From NCBI GenBank assembly GCA_937888365.1, contig CALBFA010000072.1, forward strand, positions 1-64,000: DNA of 64,000 nt, in the 5' to 3' direction. Position 1 is the first letter of the stretch. Each line of letters starts with the position of its first letter. Source of the stretch: an uncultured Fidelibacterota bacterium. Its GTDB lineage: Bacteria; Fidelibacterota; UBA8477; JABMPR01. The notes beneath the pieces were generated by a model. It made no database searches. It saw only the letters and a program-made list of their open reading frames with translations, and was not told the origin of the DNA. Below, in pieces: positions 3,654 to 50,200 of this stretch. Position numbers and translations under genes: made by a program.

Positions 3654-6600
3654 TTGACCCGTCAAACGAGACATATTATTTCATTGTCGATTCTGCTATT
3701 CATACTAGCGCCCAATATTTTATTCAGTCAAATGATGATGGCTGAAACCGATACGATAAGAACGAATTTCATTGAAATAGATTATCCTATTTACCATGCG
3801 AAATCCATCGATGACGTAGATTCGCTATACAATAAAGAAATAAAAATAAAGAATCAATCGTCAAATTTGAAAGCAGAAGGATCGATCTCTAGAGAAGTAC
3901 AGGTTTCAGGTGCATCGAATATTTCGGTGAACTCAGGGACTGATTTGATGATATCCGGTGAATTAATGCCACAAGTCATGTTTAAAGGCTTAATTCGAGA
4001 AAGCCAAATACCCTTGCAACCGATGGGAAATACCCAAGCGTTGAGGGATTACGATAAAATCCTCCTTGAGGTCACAAGTCCTTCCATTCATTTATTTGCT
4101 GGAGATGTTGATTACGTCGCTTCCTCAAACCTTTCACCATTAAAACGGCAGTTTCAAGGCATCCAAGCAAACTATATAAATGACAATATGTCGGCTGAAT
4201 CCTATGCAGGATTTACCGCCTACGAACGCCACACCGCCTTTTTTAATGGACAAGATGGGAAGCAAGGACCCTATCGTCTCTATGGTAAAAATGGCGAGCG
4301 ACAAGTCATCATTATTGCTGGCACCGAATCCATTTGGATTGATGGAAAGCTGCTAACGCGTGGTAAAACAAATGATTATATCATCGATTATAATAGTGCA
4401 GAAGTCGATTTTATGATTGAGAATCCTATTTCGAATGAAACGAAAATTCAAGTGGCGTATCAATATATTTCAGACCCATTTTTAGGCGCTATTGGCTATG
4501 CAAAAAATCATCTAGGCGCAAGAATTGAATATCGTCCTGTTTCATCCATTAATGTTGGACTAAAAATCAATCACAGATCTGATGATGCCAGGCATCCATT
4601 AGGAAATATTAGTCCTGATAGTTTGGAAATAATATTTAATTCGCATGACGTTGAGAATGGAAAAGTTCGTATTTCGACGGCCATCTTGGATACAATTCTT
4701 GGCGAATATGATTTAAATATGGACCAACAATATGTTTATGTGGGTGAGGGAAATGGTCTCTACCGCGTTCTATTTCAATATGTTGGTACAGGAAAAGGCG
4801 TGTACCGAAAGAGTATTGAAGCAGGGCATACTATCTATAGTTTTGATCCAGTTGGTGGTGACTATGTTACGTATCGAACGTGGCAAGCGCCTGAAACATC
4901 TCAAATAATTTCTGGAATGACGGAGATTAATGTCCAGCATTTTAAATCAAAAATTGAATATTCACTCATGCAAAAAATTGCAAATACTTATAATATCCAA
5001 TTCGAACCTGAAGTACGGAATGCATTTCTTTTCTCAAATGAAATCATGACTAAATATGTTAATCTTAGTGGAAATTATCGATATTTAAGCGAGGGATATG
5101 TGCCCTTTGATAATTTAAATCCCTTGGAATATTATTATAAATGGCAATTAAATCCAAGAATTGCTGAAATGGAAAAATGGCTGAATACAAAATTATTTAT
5201 CGGTGATAGTTTGACAAAACATATCTCGTTTCAAATAGAACAATTGTCGAGAGATGATGAAGGTAAAAGGCTACGAGGAAATATTTCATCCCATTATACG
5301 AATCGTCATCATGTATTATTGGATGCAAATGCTGCATTGTTTCGACAAAATGACTTGACGCAAGATGAAATGAATATTCAATTAACAATGCCAGTTCTCA
5401 ATGAATCGAATCGACTAAGCCTCGCTACAAATTGGCAAAGTGCTTCTGCAGTTCCACTCCAAATATATCAACCTTCATCGTTTACAATCAGAGGTGAATA
5501 CCAGTTAATTCATAAATATGTGCAATCGAATTTGCATATTTTAAACAGACGAGAGGCAGGATTGAACGAGCAATATTCACTCAATCAAACACTAAGAGAC
5601 TGGAAGAAAAATAGGCAGGAATTCGGTTTAGGCATCAAATCGAATAAAACTCCAAATCAATCATTTATTTTAGCTTCATCCCTACGTGAAGTCGAAACAC
5701 TTGATTCAATAGGTACGAATAAACAAAGATTTTTGCTCGGTAAAATGAAATATAATGGACGCTTTTTTGACGAACATTTAAATATTTCCACTGATTATGA
5801 AACCAATGAAGAACATTTGCCGCAATACGACTATTACTATTTACCCGTCGATTCAGGGTTTGGGAACCATAGTTATGATCCCGTAATACATGATTATATT
5901 CCAACACCAGGCGGACGATTTATTCAACAACGACTGTATAGTGATGTGGAACAGCAAGTTCGAAGTTCTAAAGGTAAGTATCATGTAAAATACAAATACA
6001 GTCTGATACACAACGAGATAGCTGGATTAAATACTTATGATATTCAGCTAAGCTATCGCAATGATGTGCGACAATCCTTAGATCAGAATAAAACATTAAT
6101 GGAAAATAGTTCGATTTATGGGAATCTTATTTTATCGAATTCAAAAAGCAATCAGCAATGGTATCGAGTCTATATGTCGAATGCATTATCAAAATCTCAA
6201 ATGCATACATCAGGCCTTGAATCGCGTATTAATCAGCGTAAAGGAATTGAGGGGAAATGGACATTATCTAGAGATTTACGAGTAAATCTAGTGTACGAAA
6301 AAACGTATCAGGAGAAGGAAATGGCGTTTAATATTGGTCTCAATGAAAAATTTAACAAACATCAACTTTCGAGTGTTGTTGAGAATCATTTTAAAATTCC
6401 TGGTAAAGTCAAACTCGCGATTGATTATGGTCAAGTACAAGAAATTAGCAGCGAACATAGTTGGGATGAAATGAAAATGAAAATTCAGATTAGTCCGAAG
6501 CTAAATAGGCGATCAATCCTTAGATTAGAAGGCGAGTATTCGAAAATAAATGGCTATATTACGCACTTATTGTACTCCTATTTTGACGGTCGGCAAGTTG

Positions 6601-6740
6601 GAGTGAATACGAAATACAGTCTTGATGGGCAATTCCGACTCAGTTCGCGACTCATGTTGACTCTAAATTCGAGTATTATGCAACGTGGTGACAACAGCCC
6701 TGAAAAATATTTACAGCTTAAAGGGAAAATGTTTTTTTAA
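3654..6740 (+). CDS. large outer-membrane beta-barrel-like protein of unknown function
   Basis: Signal peptide, 'EGSISREVQVSGASNISVNSGTDLMISGEL...IPLQPMGNTQALRDYDKILLEV...AGDVDYV' as in uncharacterised Bacteroidetes/Chlorobi-type OMPs; many alternating beta segments; C-terminal Phe. TTG start. Confidence 0.6.
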   Translation: MTRQTRHIISLSILLFILAPNILFSQMMMAETDTIRTNFIEIDYPIYHAKSIDDVDSLYNKEIKIKNQSSNLKAEGSISREVQVSGASNISVNSGTDLMISGELMPQVMFKGLIRESQIPLQPMGNTQALRDYDKILLEVTSPSIHLFAGDVDYVASSNLSPLKRQFQGIQANYINDNMSAESYAGFTAYERHTAFFNGQDGKQGPYRLYGKNGERQVIIIAGTESIWIDGKLLTRGKTNDYIIDYNSAEVDFMIENPISNETKIQVAYQYISDPFLGAIGYAKNHLGARIEYRPVSSINVGLKINHRSDDARHPLGNISPDSLEIIFNSHDVENGKVRISTAILDTILGEYDLNMDQQYVYVGEGNGLYRVLFQYVGTGKGVYRKSIEAGHTIYSFDPVGGDYVTYRTWQAPETSQIISGMTEINVQHFKSKIEYSLMQKIANTYNIQFEPEVRNAFLFSNEIMTKYVNLSGNYRYLSEGYVPFDNLNPLEYYYKWQLNPRIAEMEKWLNTKLFIGDSLTKHISFQIEQLSRDDEGKRLRGNISSHYTNRHHVLLDANAALFRQNDLTQDEMNIQLTMPVLNESNRLSLATNWQSASAVPLQIYQPSSFTIRGEYQLIHKYVQSNLHILNRREAGLNEQYSLNQTLRDWKKNRQEFGLGIKSNKTPNQSFILASSLREVETLDSIGTNKQRFLLGKMKYNGRFFDEHLNISTDYETNEEHLPQYDYYYLPVDSGFGNHSYDPVIHDYIPTPGGRFIQQRLYSDVEQQVRSSKGKYHVKYKYSLIHNEIAGLNTYDIQLSYRNDVRQSLDQNKTLMENSSIYGNLILSNSKSNQQWYRVYMSNALSKSQMHTSGLESRINQRKGIEGKWTLSRDLRVNLVYEKTYQEKEMAFNIGLNEKFNKHQLSSVVENHFKIPGKVKLAIDYGQVQEISSEHSWDEMKMKIQISPKLNRRSILRLEGEYSKINGYITHLLYSYFDGRQVGVNTKYSLDGQFRLSSRLMLTLNSSIMQRGDNSPEKYLQLKGKMFF

Positions 6741-7011
6741 GGGATAGGAACCACAGATTACACGGATTGCGCAGATTATTAAAAAATGAAAAGATTTAAA
6801 ATGATAACACAAAATAATTACCCCACCTTTTAAGGTGGGGGATAAAAACAACGAAAGAATGGGGCTTTAGCCCAACATTGATGCATTTTAAAAAACATTG
6901 GACTAAAGTCCTCTCAATTTTTGTACTAAGATACCCCAGCCTTAAAAGGCTGGGTAACATAAACGCATCCTTACTTTTCCCTCAGTACGCTCTGTGGTCT
7001 CTGTGGTTAAA
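6735..7011. repeat. palindrome-rich MITE/REP-like repeat, copy 1
   Basis: Near-identical to 7093-7369 (offset 358). Contains hairpins CCCCACCTTTTAAGGTGGGG, GGGCTTTAGCCC, GGACTAAAGTCC, CCCAGCCTTAAAAGGCTGGG; ends aaccacaga... / ...tctgtggtt are inverted. Confidence 0.9.
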
Positions 7012-7092
7012 TATTTATAATCGTCTCAAATATATTGTCCTTATTAATGGACGTCAACTTAGGTCAAATATGAATAAAGCATTTAACCCACC

Positions 7093-7369
7093 TTTTAAGG
7101 GATAGGAACCACAGATTACACGGATTGCGCAGATTATTAAAAAATGAAAAGATTTAAAATGATAACACAAAATAATTACCCCACCTTTTAAGGTGGGGGA
7201 TAAAAACAACGAAAGAATGGGGCTTTAGCCCAACATTGATGCATTTTAAAAAACATTGGACTAAAGTCCTCTCAATTTTTGTACTAAGATACCCCAGCCT
7301 TAAAAGGCTGAGTAACATAAACACATCCTTACTTTTCCCTCAGTACGCTCTGTGGTCTCTGTGGTTAAA
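7093..7369. repeat. palindrome-rich MITE/REP-like repeat, copy 2
   Basis: Same as copy 1 with few substitutions (e.g. ctgggtaacataaacgcatcc vs ctgagtaacataaacacatcc). Confidence 0.9.
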
Positions 7370-8744
7370 ATTTTTAATTATATCCTGCATTTTCATATTA
7401 CCCCTCACCGCACAAGACACAAGTCGCGTACATCTGAAAATAATCGACGGAGATAATCAAACGAATGTCCAAATTCAAAATTCAGAAATTGACTTCCAGG
7501 TTAAACAGATTTTATCTCAATACCATGACTTAGGGTTTTGGTGGGCTCGATTCCATTACGAATCTCGCGTGCTAGAAGATAGCATTATTGGCACCGCGAT
7601 ACTGGAGAAGGGAGACATTCCTCATATTAAAGAAATTGTTTTTCAAGGTAATTTGAACATAGAAGAGGCTTACATAAAGCGCTCTTTCATGCAATCCCAT
7701 GAAACTGTATTGTCAACTCAACTAGATGCGGCAGAGTCGCTCTTTAATCGAAAAAAAATGGGGCATATTTCGAATAGAGAAGTTTACAAAAACGATGATA
7801 AAGAATTTTTGCTGAGCTATAATTATAAGGCAAACCCATCAGTTTTAATGAATGCAATGCTTGGCTACAAGAGTGTTACGAAGGAAGATTCAAGCAATTG
7901 GGTTGGGTTTGTTAAGTTCAAGACCCGTCAAATTGGAGGATATCCGAGAGGATTTAGCCTGGAATGGGAAAAACTTACGCCAACTCGAGAAGTTCTTCAT
8001 TTAGCGTACTGGGAACCATGGCTTTTCTCAACAAATGCTGCTTTAAATTTAGGATATTCTCAGGAGATGATTAATGGGGAATATGTTAAATCGACGAAAT
8101 CTATGAATGGTATTTATCCACTCAATTGGAATCAGGAATTAGAAATTAATTACAATTTTCAATCAACGTTACTTACACCTTCAGGGCACATTAAATATCC
8201 TAACCAAACGAATAATAGTCTCCAGGCTTTGGGTTTTTCATTAAATTCCTATCAAACATGGCAAAAAGGAGCAATGCTGAAAGCGCGTGTGAGTATCTTA
8301 AATAAATATGAAAAGAATCGTAATGAAAATATTACAAAACTCAGCGGTATGATGGCTTTTACATCGGGTTTAGATCATTATTATCAATATTTTGGGAACA
8401 TAAGCGTGTTGCATCAAAACCTTGATAATGATAATATTCTGTACACGGATTATATAGGTGGAATTCATTCTATTCGAGGTCATTATGAAAGTCAATACCG
8501 AGTCGATTCCTATGTCGTTATGCAGAATGAGATACGAATCGTAAAAGATAAAAGCCAGTTTTTTGTCCTTTTGGACAGAGCTAAGTTAAATTTATTAAAC
8601 AAAACAACTTATGTATCAGGATATGGAATTGGATTTCGTGTACCGTCAGGTCGGCAGAAAATAGAAATTCTCCTCGCTACAAACCCGAGCTTGGGTTGGC
8701 GAAATGCTTTGTTACATTTAAGCTACGGAGGAGACATCAATTGA
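7236..8744 (+). CDS. Omp85/BamA-TamA-like outer membrane protein; N-terminus rewritten by the repeat
   Basis: POTRA-like IKEIVFQGNLNIEEAYIKRSF, IHSIRGHYESQYRVDSYVVMQNEIR, C-terminal GWRNALLHLSYGGDIN. First ~44 residues are repeat sequence; hydrophobic FLIISCIFILPLTAQ follows. Confidence 0.7.
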   Translation: MMHFKKHWTKVLSIFVLRYPSLKRLSNINTSLLFPQYALWSLWLKFLIISCIFILPLTAQDTSRVHLKIIDGDNQTNVQIQNSEIDFQVKQILSQYHDLGFWWARFHYESRVLEDSIIGTAILEKGDIPHIKEIVFQGNLNIEEAYIKRSFMQSHETVLSTQLDAAESLFNRKKMGHISNREVYKNDDKEFLLSYNYKANPSVLMNAMLGYKSVTKEDSSNWVGFVKFKTRQIGGYPRGFSLEWEKLTPTREVLHLAYWEPWLFSTNAALNLGYSQEMINGEYVKSTKSMNGIYPLNWNQELEINYNFQSTLLTPSGHIKYPNQTNNSLQALGFSLNSYQTWQKGAMLKARVSILNKYEKNRNENITKLSGMMAFTSGLDHYYQYFGNISVLHQNLDNDNILYTDYIGGIHSIRGHYESQYRVDSYVVMQNEIRIVKDKSQFFVLLDRAKLNLLNKTTYVSGYGIGFRVPSGRQKIEILLATNPSLGWRNALLHLSYGGDIN

Positions 8745-10909
8745 ACATTGAGCTAATTAAAAAAAAGACAATCGATTTTTTAAAGAAACATCATAAAAAA
8801 TCCTGGAAACGAAGAACAATCTTTAAAAATCTTATGCTTGAGACTGAACATTACAAAGCATTTAAAACAGGTTTATATGAACTGGAACTTGATGGTAAAC
8901 TCCATAAGGCCGCTAAAAATTTGTACCAATTCGAAAAAGTCATTAAAGCCGTTACGGGTGTTTTGGCCGTTACGACAAAGGGTTTTGGATTTGTAGAGCT
9001 TGAAGATGGCAGCGAGGTTTTCATCCCGTTGAGTAAAATGAATACTGCTATCAATGGTGATACGGTTTCCGTCGAGATAACCAAAATTATCGAAGGGCGG
9101 AATCCAGAAGGTCAAATTCTTGATGTCATTGCACGAAATAAAACAGAATTTGTGGGCACCTTCACGATGGACCGATTTGGCTCATGGGTGATTCCTGAAG
9201 ATAAATATTTTACGAAGCATTTAACAATTCCCCACGAATTTTTGCATGAAGCGAAAGATGGTCAAATTGTCGTGGTTGAATTATTAAAATGGGAAGCGCC
9301 TCAATATAGTCCCGTTGGAAAAATTATTGAAATATTAGGCGATGTAGGCGACAGTGAACTTGAGTATAAGAAGCTCATTCGCGAATACGATTTACCATAT
9401 GAATGGACCGATAAAGCACTCCAACAAGCCAAAAATTATTCACAAGATGATATAGCCAAGGAAACAAATCGACGTGTAGATTTACGGAATTTAGTTTGTT
9501 TTACCATTGACCCGAAAACAGCGAAAGATTTTGATGATGCCGTTTCCGTAGAAAAAGTTGGTAATGGGTGGCGGCTTGGTGTTCATATCGCAGACGTTTC
9601 ACATTATGTAACACCTGGCTCACCTATTGATATAGGAGCGCGTAAGCGAGGAACCTCGATCTATTTTGTTGGCTCCGTATTACACATGCTTCCTAATGAT
9701 TTATCTGAAACATTTTGTTCGCTAAAACCCAAAGTTGATAGACTGGCCATGACGTGTATGATGGATATATCATTGGAAGGATCTGTCACTGGCTATGAGA
9801 TATTTCCATCAACTATTAACTCGAATCAACGATTCACCTATGAAGATGTACAATCAATATTAAATGGTGATTTAAGCCATGGATTTTCGGAAACCCTTCT
9901 GGAAATGAATAATTTACGCAAAATGCTTTTCAAAATTAGGATGGGCGAGGGGTCGATAGATTTAGATTTGCCTGAATCAGAAATCATTTTGGCCGATGAC
10001 GGGTTTCCTATTGCGATTCATCCATCCGATCGATTAGAGAGTCATCGTTTAGTTGAAGAATTTATGCTTTTGGCAAATCAAACCGTTGCTGATTTTTTTA
10101 TGAAACATTCTTCAGAGCAGAAGAAAATCGGACTTTATCGAATTCATGAGGAACCGTCTCGTGAAAAAGTAACACGACTTAGTGATATATTAACGAAGCT
10201 TGAAATTAAAAGAGGCTTGAAGTATCCCGTAAAACCATCTGAATATCAGGAAGTTATAGAACTATCAAAAAATAGTCAATTCCGACATTTTATAGAAAAG
10301 GTCGCATTAACGTCAATGTCAAAAGCGTTTTATTCAACACGTCAGATTGGTCATTTTGGGCTGGCGTTTAAACATTATACGCATTTTACGTCTCCAATTC
10401 GCCGTTATCCTGATTTAATCGTACATCGTATTTTAAAGAGTTTACTCAAAACCGAAAATTGGGTTATTCCCAAAGAAGAAGATTTGGAAAAAACGGCCAA
10501 ACATTGCTCTGCACGTGAAATTATTGCGACGAAAGTGGAGCGAAACCACTTGAAGTATAAACAATTGCAATGGTTATCACATCATGTTGGAGAGGAATTT
10601 ACAGGCGTTATTTCAGGTATTTTACCCATTGGATTCTTTGTAGAATTGTCAGAAAGTTTAGTCGAAGGATTGGTGCATATGAAATCATTGACGGATGACT
10701 GGTATGAGCATCGAGAAGACGAATATGCGTTTGTTGGCCGTCGAACAGGTCAATCATATCGAATGGGAGACCAAGTTAATATTCGAGTCGCATCGGTTCA
10801 GCCATCACAAGGATTTGCTGATTTTGAGCTATTAAAGAGTGAAAAAGATATTAAAATAAAAACGCATCCTCGGACAAAACGTAAATATTACGGGAGTAAG
10901 AGGACCTAA
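8741..10909 (+). CDS. rnr: ribonuclease R
   Basis: RNB domain (CFTIDPKTAKDFDDAVSVEK, GVHIADVSHYV), HYTHFTSPIRRYPDLIVHR, C-terminal S1 domain. TTG start at 8741 with GGAGGA upstream. Confidence 0.95.
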   Translation: MNIELIKKKTIDFLKKHHKKSWKRRTIFKNLMLETEHYKAFKTGLYELELDGKLHKAAKNLYQFEKVIKAVTGVLAVTTKGFGFVELEDGSEVFIPLSKMNTAINGDTVSVEITKIIEGRNPEGQILDVIARNKTEFVGTFTMDRFGSWVIPEDKYFTKHLTIPHEFLHEAKDGQIVVVELLKWEAPQYSPVGKIIEILGDVGDSELEYKKLIREYDLPYEWTDKALQQAKNYSQDDIAKETNRRVDLRNLVCFTIDPKTAKDFDDAVSVEKVGNGWRLGVHIADVSHYVTPGSPIDIGARKRGTSIYFVGSVLHMLPNDLSETFCSLKPKVDRLAMTCMMDISLEGSVTGYEIFPSTINSNQRFTYEDVQSILNGDLSHGFSETLLEMNNLRKMLFKIRMGEGSIDLDLPESEIILADDGFPIAIHPSDRLESHRLVEEFMLLANQTVADFFMKHSSEQKKIGLYRIHEEPSREKVTRLSDILTKLEIKRGLKYPVKPSEYQEVIELSKNSQFRHFIEKVALTSMSKAFYSTRQIGHFGLAFKHYTHFTSPIRRYPDLIVHRILKSLLKTENWVIPKEEDLEKTAKHCSAREIIATKVERNHLKYKQLQWLSHHVGEEFTGVISGILPIGFFVELSESLVEGLVHMKSLTDDWYEHREDEYAFVGRRTGQSYRMGDQVNIRVASVQPSQGFADFELLKSEKDIKIKTHPRTKRKYYGSKRT

Positions 10910-49210: not shown

Positions 49211-49308
49211 ACTTTCCTCTTATTTTTCTTCTTACGCATGGGACCCATTGCTTCTTTCTAGCGCTTTTTGAATTTGGAGAACCTTGTGAAAATGTTTCTA
49301 GCAATTAT

Positions 49309-49434
49309 GGTTGTTTTGAGTGGTTTCAATTCGTCCCTCATTGTCCTGTCTACTGAATGACGGAATAACTTCGTTGAATTCTGATTTAAATCAAGAAATC
49401 TTTTTGGGTGTAGTGTTTTTAAAAGATTTACCAC
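49309..49434 (-). repeat. dispersed repeat, arm 2 (homologous to 93-219, opposite strand)
   Basis: Reverse complement gtggtaaatcttttaaaaacactacacccaaaaagatttcttgattt...gacaatgagggacgaattgaaa...aaacaacc. Confidence 0.85.
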
Positions 49435-49449
49435 GGAGAACATAAAGTA

Positions 49450-50200
49450 CACGGAGAAAATTAGGATGGATTTAAGAATATCGATTAACGATTGTTGATT
49501 TTAGAGCTTGTCATTCTGAGTGGAACGAAGAATCTCATACGTCGTATTGGATTATTATTATGAGACTTTAAGAGACTCTTCTCCGCCTACTGGCTGATCA
49601 GAGCGATAGGTCACTTTGTGGCTTTGTGAGAATCTTTAAAAGTATACCACCGAGAGCACGGAGAAAATTAGGATGGATTTAAGAATATCGATTAATGATT
49701 GTTGATTGTAGAGCTTGTCATTCTGAGTGGAACGAAGAATCTCATACGTCGTATTGGATTATTATTATGAGACTTTAAGAGACTCTTCTCCGCCTACTGG
49801 CTGATCAGAGTGACAAGTGGACCCAATCTTTTTGCTTTTTTTTCTTTGTGAATCTTAGCGCTTCTTCGTGTGCCTTGGTGTTAGACTTTTTTTAACCACA
49901 GAGGAAGCAGAGAATTACACAGAGTACACGGAGAAAATTAGGATGGATTTAAGAATATCGATTAATGATTGTTGATTGTAGAGCTTGTCATTCTGAGTGG
50001 AACGAAGAATCTCATACGTCGTATTGGATTATTATTATGAGACTTTAAGAGACTCTTCTCCGCCTACTGGCTGATCAGAGCGATAGGTCACTTTGTGGCT
50101 TTGTGAGAATCTTTAAAAGTATACCACCGAGAGCACGGAGAATTTTTTTAGGGATTTAAGAATATCGATTAACGATTGTTGATTTTAGAAAGATACGCTC
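49450..50200. repeat. tandem/nested repeat array: three full cores and one partial
   Basis: cacggagaaaattaggatggatttaagaatatcgatta...gagcttgtcattctgagtggaacgaagaatctcatacgtcg...ctggctgatcagag starts at 49450, 49657, 49927 and (partial) 50134; spacings 207, 270, 207. Confidence 0.92.

Follow-up and report, generated by a model that had tools for sequence, protein, structure and literature searches.

A short inverted-repeat element separates the probable former start of an Omp85-superfamily gene from the rest of its reading frame in the genome of an uncultured Fidelibacterota bacterium. The element is present twice in the 64,000-nucleotide stretch of contig C72 that was analysed (the window), and its second copy lies between ATGAATAAAGCATTT at position 7070 and the codons of FLIISCIFILPLTAQ. 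The reading that we prefer, with a confidence only a little better than even, is that this copy inserted after codon 5 of the gene, that the gene is now started from within the repeat, and that the protein is still made with a 58-residue leader. The locus would then illustrate a recent event in which a small non-autonomous repeat severed the start of a gene together with part of its export signal and left the fused frame open, and it lets one ask directly whether such a repeat can supply both start and leader.

The Omp85 Locus

The two copies of the repeat were located by BLAST at 6735–7011 (copy 1) and 7087–7369 (copy 2), both on the plus strand, and by ungapped comparison at 6735–7016 and 7093–7374. 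Their alignment over 277 positions shows 2 differences, and BLAST found no further full copy in the source genome (2.53 Mb in 110 contigs). The start of copy 1 coincides with the stop codon (TAA 6738–6740) of the upstream gene (3654–6740, plus strand), which encodes a barrel-like protein of 1028 aa without a Pfam match; the C-terminal half of this protein aligns with the product of the gene 5′ of the orthologues, and both end at the same position. A spacer of 58 nt (7012–7069), without counterpart in relatives, leads from copy 1 to ATG 7070. Copy 2 sets in 17 bases past this ATG, and its end directly abuts the codons of FLIISCIFILPLTAQ. The present open frame (7236–8744, plus strand; 502 aa from TTG 7236 or 501 aa from ATG 7239) is followed by the gene for RNase R (8741–10909, plus strand), which overlaps the end of the Omp85 gene. 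The Omp85-superfamily gene has a conserved gene on its upstream side and RNase R on the other, and because the order barrel gene, Omp85 gene, RNase R is conserved in relatives, the two flanks of the insertion belong together.

This conserved order of the outer flanks also makes it very improbable that the arrangement is an assembly artefact in which the two copies or the intervening spacer were mis-joined. Such an error would suit a genome in 110 contigs and copies that share long identical stretches, but the copies differ internally, the junctions differ on both sides, and there is no other full copy with which a misjoin could have occurred.

Two other accounts of the duplicated arrangement were tried and rejected. 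The spacer was considered as a piece of another repeat, but it had no good match elsewhere in the genome, the best being 18 nt long (E 0.016). A simple tandem duplication of the repeat plus the spacer was dropped, as the similarity between the spacer and the sequence that follows copy 2 extends over only about a dozen AT-rich bases.

Omp85 proteins combine POTRA domains with a barrel that carries a (V/I)RG(F/Y) motif. It was found that PF01103 (Omp85) matched all 16 orthologues (best value 2.1e-12) and that the best solved relatives of the family profile in the PDB were BamA and TamA. The window protein itself falls below the PF01103 threshold, but it aligns with the orthologues over its length; it is divergent (20–23% identity) and keeps the invariant columns. 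At the position of the (V/I)RG(F/Y) motif, the orthologues have LGGVNSVRGYEE and the window copy has IGGIHSIRGHYE. The label Omp85-like, which the initial annotation had given to the gene, is therefore supported by the matches of the orthologues, though not by one of the divergent window copy.

The Probable Former Start of the Gene

From ATG 7070, the old frame reads ATG AAT AAA GCA TTT AAC CCA CCT TTT AAG GGA TAG, with its stop codon at 7103–7105, and the old start now encodes an 11-residue peptide, MNKAFNPPFKG. This agrees with the initial annotation, in which MNKAF (7070–7086) was said to run into the repeat and then stop. Removal of 7087–7369 gives MNKAFKFLIISCIFILPLTAQ in frame. The probable former 5′ end of the gene, ATGAATAAAGCATTTAA (7070–7086, plus strand), joined to 7370 onward encodes MNKAFKFLIISCIFILPLTA|Q, a signal peptide of 20 residues. 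The proposal that removal of 283 bp would restore a signal peptide in frame thus stands, but the left boundary of copy 2 is ambiguous, since CCCACC (7087–7092) is missing from copy 1.

Protein relatives of the Omp85 gene product were found in 41 of 60 genomes, and the N-termini were compared in 16 orthologues in which they were readable, all of other genera. A repeat-derived leader was present in none of the 16. Eleven orthologues had a clear signal peptide, taken as a leader ending in A, G or S before Q, and its length was 20 residues in 10 of these and 21 in one, so that the rejoined peptide has the modal length. Together with the conserved gene order, these comparisons with orthologous loci bear out the claim that the repeat was inserted into a signal peptide. 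An in-frame ATG at a suitable distance would arise by chance in 9% of shuffled spacers and 13% of the time in the window background, and it is therefore the agreement in signal-peptide length that carries the argument for MNKAF as the old start. We conclude that ATG 7070 is the probable former start of the Omp85 gene.

The region upstream of ATG 7070 differs from that of the relatives. The junction of the two genes was readable in 15 same-family genomes, and in 14 of them the start codon shares 1 nt with the upstream stop (TAATG or TGATG); in the window, the upstream stop is 329 nt from the old ATG and 498 nt from the new one. Since the relatives have this overlap and no spacer, any ancestral arrangement proposed for the DNA ahead of ATG 7070 is tentative. 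The overlap also fits an alternative in which the whole block 6741–7369 (copy 1, spacer and copy 2) entered an old TAATG junction, as one unit or stepwise, MNKAF being a fortuitous in-frame ATG of the kind expected in 9–13% of spacers and the old leader being MKFLIISCIFILPLTA. We think this unlikely, as the TG of the old start would have to have been lost in addition and the signal peptide would have 16 residues, compared to the 20 of the orthologues; moreover, the overlap is not universal, as an order-level relative (L013) shows. An insertion within the signal peptide, with ATG 7070 as the former start, is therefore preferred.

Among the relatives, the TAATG overlap of the barrel gene and the Omp85 gene (L004–L021) is apparently a conserved translational coupling. 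In one of them (L004), the leader comprises 52 residues from the overlapping ATG or 19 from an internal ATG, and the possible 52-residue leader means that the family may allow some variation in leader length. The extra leader stretch of L004 was considered as a separate insertion of this kind, an idea that was rejected because the stretch is not repeated in the genome of that relative.

Boundaries of Copy 2

The right boundary of copy 2 is set by the end of the match between the copies (7369/7370), and the frame-restoring removal of 283 bases runs from CCCACC through the last base common to both. At the left junction, CCCACCTTTTAAGG reappears within the element at hairpin A, and this recurrence hints at template switching during copying.

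The best candidate for a target-site duplication was TTAA, which flanks copy 2 at 7083–7086 and 7365–7368 with a spacing of 282. Excision of the TTAA type, removing 282 bases, would leave the frame broken (MNKAFKIFNYILHFH...), and GGTTAA also occurs in the right end that the copies share, including that of copy 1. There is no secure target-site duplication around copy 2, in line with the initial annotation.

The Present Reading Frame

The only conventional starts of the frame 7236–8744 are TTG 7236 and ATG 7239, and both lie within copy 2. It had been noted earlier that no start is available nearby downstream of the repeat and that the long frame must consequently start inside it; both points hold, as these two codons are the sole in-frame ATG, GTG or TTG before the mature part. 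ATG 7239 lies 7 nt past hairpin B. With a start inside the repeat, the leader would comprise 58 residues before Q, MHFKKHWTKVLSIFVLRYPSLKRLSNINTSLLFPQYALWSLWLK followed by FLIISCIFILPLTA. The repeat encodes 44 of these residues and the hydrophobic core is unchanged, in agreement with the leader of more than 40 residues that had been predicted in front of the hydrophobic segment.

The remaining 458 codons of the gene are intact, with no stop and no frameshift, and all invariant residues are kept. The right part of copy 2 can be read in three forward frames, of which a single one both stays open and contains an ATG. The gene is joined to precisely this frame, and we take this as a mild argument that the fusion may have been selected. 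In copy 1, the repeat frame (ATG 6881, MHFKKHW...) is open across the spacer and continues in frame into ATG 7070 (MNKAFNPPFKG), so that 6881–7105 forms one frame. Given this open frame, a longer frame may already have been fused to the gene before copy 2 arrived.

A possible but doubtful account is that the same insertion took place and the gene is now inactive, either because ATG 7239 does not work as a start or because the long basic leader blocks export, the recency of the event being the only reason for the intact frame. With so few differences between the copies, there was little time for decay, and the intact downstream frame consequently also fits a recently silenced gene; the gene no longer has the conserved stop/start overlap with its upstream neighbour, and ATG 7239 lies directly behind a hairpin. 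However, the one frame of the element that is open and has an ATG is also the one that continues into the gene, for which the chance is 1 in 3, the 458 codons have been preserved as described above, and RNase R, whose gene overlaps the end of the Omp85 gene, may require translation of the latter, to judge from the gene order. Between the two accounts, a protein started within the repeat is slightly preferred to an inactive gene.

The course of events that we propose would begin with a non-autonomous mosaic inverted-repeat element of ~270–283 bp inserting after the fifth signal-peptide codon of the Omp85-superfamily gene, with a near-identical copy adjoining upstream at the stop of the preceding gene. 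Copy 2 would be the later arrival, and its source was most likely local, the element having either moved or been copied by a Y1 transposase acting on single-stranded DNA or by a template switch, in an event that leaves no target-site duplication. The insertion would have cut the start codon and the first five codons off the gene, and the remaining frame would run back into the element to the in-frame ATG there. The protein would most probably still be made, perhaps at a reduced level, and exported with a leader of 44 repeat-encoded residues plus FLIISCIFILPLTA.

Composition of the Repeat

Judged by its matches elsewhere, the repeat is a mosaic inverted repeat of two separately dispersed modules. 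For most of their length, its two halves form an imperfect inverted repeat (none of 500 shuffles was as good), and as single-stranded DNA it folds better than 200 of 200 shuffles (z −3.5). In copy 2, with the positions in copy 1 given in parentheses, the parts on the plus strand are a left end of the type that flanks GxxExxY genes, AACCACAGATTACACGGATT, at 7107–7126 (6749–6768); hairpin A, CCCCACCTTTTAAGGTGGGG, at 7179–7198 (6821–6840); hairpin B, GGGCTTTAGCCC, at 7220–7231 (6862–6873); hairpin B′, GGACTAAAGTCC, at 7258–7269 (6900–6911); hairpin A′, ACCCCAGCCTTAAAAGGCTGAGT, at 7291–7313 (6933–6955), in which one stem base differs from copy 1; and a right end, CTCTGTGGTCTCTGTGGTTAAA, at 7348–7369 (6990–7011). 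The outer ends match those around GxxExxY (PF13366) genes, and the two double hairpins between them correspond to sequences that flank IS200-like Y1 transposase genes.

The repeat contains neither a transposase frame nor a GxxExxY frame, a search of it against Rfam gave chance-level matches only, far under the gathering scores, and no promoter-like site was found on the coding strand of the element. A search with the whole element in 245 genomes of the phylum returned mostly partial matches, many of them at query positions ~12–62 or ~78–149; the former kind corresponds to the end AACCACAGATTACACGGATT, and the latter to hairpins CCCCACCTTTTAAGGTGGGG and GGGCTTTAGCCC. Miniature inverted-repeat elements (MITEs) are short, do not code for a transposase, have terminal inverted repeats and a target-site duplication, and occur in dispersed copies. 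The repeat resembles them in its shortness, its lack of a transposase frame and its inverted halves, but just two full copies exist, which are adjacent, and it is the modules that are scattered separately.

One GxxExxY gene (PF13366, TIGR04256) in the source genome is bounded by TTAACCACAGATTACACAGAT and ATCGGTGTAATCTGTGGTTAA. In relatives, a GxxExxY gene was found within 1.5 kb or less of 4 of 12 matches of the end type, compared to 0 of 17 other matches. Several head-to-tail units of the CCCTTCGTGGTAAAAAAGAAACCACAGAG-type repeat follow the GxxExxY gene on contig C53 of the source genome (L054), and adjacent copies seem typical of repeats of this type. At two loci (L067 and L071), the GxxExxY genes beside matching repeat ends appear to be split over two frames, which suggests that some such genes are decaying.

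Other repeats were observed in the window. Inverted arms of 132 nt, 83% complementary, lie 49 kb apart at 93–224 and 49303–49434; as they begin in CTGTGGTAAAA and CTCCGTGGTAAA, they possibly represent a further pair of repeat ends of the GTGGTAAA type. A short gene with a KilA-N domain (PF04383; 310–684), possibly truncated, lies beside the arm at 93–224 near the contig edge. Three direct copies of a 273-nt unit (49440–50189; 68–96% identical), without a long frame of their own, lie upstream of a minus-strand gene for a leucyl-tRNA synthetase-like protein.

Hairpins CCCCACCTTTTAAGGTGGGG and GGGCTTTAGCCC match (72%) a stretch directly upstream of a Y1 transposase gene on contig C95 of the source genome, where the comparison covers the upstream side, the contig ending before the downstream side. 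The arrangement [A][B]-gene-[B′][A′] was found around a 65% identical transposase in a relative, and both sides are present in L091 and L092; the window element has the layout [A][B]-[B′][A′] without the transposase gene. The core palindrome occurs at 17 genome sites, compared to 3 for a reversed control. IS200-like Y1 transposases with a Y---Q--H motif at L091–L098, L101, L102, L110 and L117 have upstream and downstream flanks that are significantly inverted relative to each other and often form double hairpins, and a second inverted pair in the source genome (L043, contig C44) has the same double hairpins in the opposite arrangement, [B′][A′]...[A][B].

REP sequences and REPINs of the GTAG class carry a GTAG or GTGG tetranucleotide 5′ of the hairpin and have a cognate REP-associated tyrosine transposase. 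In the window element, AATTA precedes hairpin A and AGAATG precedes hairpin B, and there is no GTAG or GTGG foot. The linked transposase passes the IS200/IS605 model of NCBIfam (70.6 against a cut-off of 55) and fails the REP_Tyr_transpos model (22.8 against a cut-off of 80), and a classical RAYT/REP parentage was therefore dropped. Its motif, YIQNQEEHH, fits the Y---Q--HH signature of TnpA-Y1 subclass 1.2. We read the inner part of the element as a putative non-autonomous derivative of an IS200-like Y1 element, one that would work like a BIME or REPIN yet lie outside the GTAG class.

There is a slim chance that a deleted IS200-like transposase once began at the ATG that the Omp85 gene can now use, with the host protein still exported. 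The comparison is between ATGCATTTTAAAAAACATTGG, MHFKKHW, in the element and ATGGGTTTTATAAAAATTTGG, MGFIKIW. Against the transposase of the source genome, a relic at ATG 7239 beats shuffles only at p 0.02–0.05, and we regard it as speculation. If it were true, a gutted transposon would have donated a translation start, behind its own hairpin, to an outer-membrane protein.

Relationship to Known Systems

Two repeat types that are widespread in uncultured bacteria and poorly understood come together in the mosaic, namely the ends of GxxExxY genes and the double hairpins of IS200-like elements. No description of a mosaic of these two modules was found in the literature searched, nor one of the GxxExxY flanks or their end sequences, and the combination of GxxExxY ends with Y1 hairpins appears to be undescribed. 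The window element resembles the GxxExxY flanks in that a GxxExxY gene of the source genome is immediately bounded by AACCACAGATTACAC.../...GTGTAATCTGTGGTT ends, and it differs from them in having a hairpin module between the ends in place of the gene.

In-frame capture of small palindromic elements is already known: Rickettsia palindromic elements, ERIC and BOX are small palindromic repeats that have been captured in frame by protein genes (PMC10969869). The present case is similar in that a small, palindromic, non-autonomous repeat entered a protein gene and left an in-frame fusion. Unlike those elements, it removes the start of the gene, splits a signal peptide and would have to supply the start codon; furthermore, its sequence combines two other repeat types, and it has only two full copies.

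The element also shares features with BIMEs, REPINs and REPtrons (PMC6006769; Ton-Hoang et al. 2012, cited there), namely two inverted hairpin units without a gene and hairpins that match those flanking a Y1 (HuH) transposase in the same genome. It differs from BIMEs and REPINs in that the GTAG/GTGG foot is absent, each unit is a double hairpin, and the transposase is IS200/IS605-like rather than of the REP type. TnpA-Y1 subclass 1.2, with its Y---Q--HH signature, was described as having, in general, no typical terminal structures (PMC6006769). The linked transposase resembles this subclass in its motif, its low copy number and its relationship to IS200, whereas significantly inverted flanks were found here at 12 of the 17 tested loci of such Y1 transposases.
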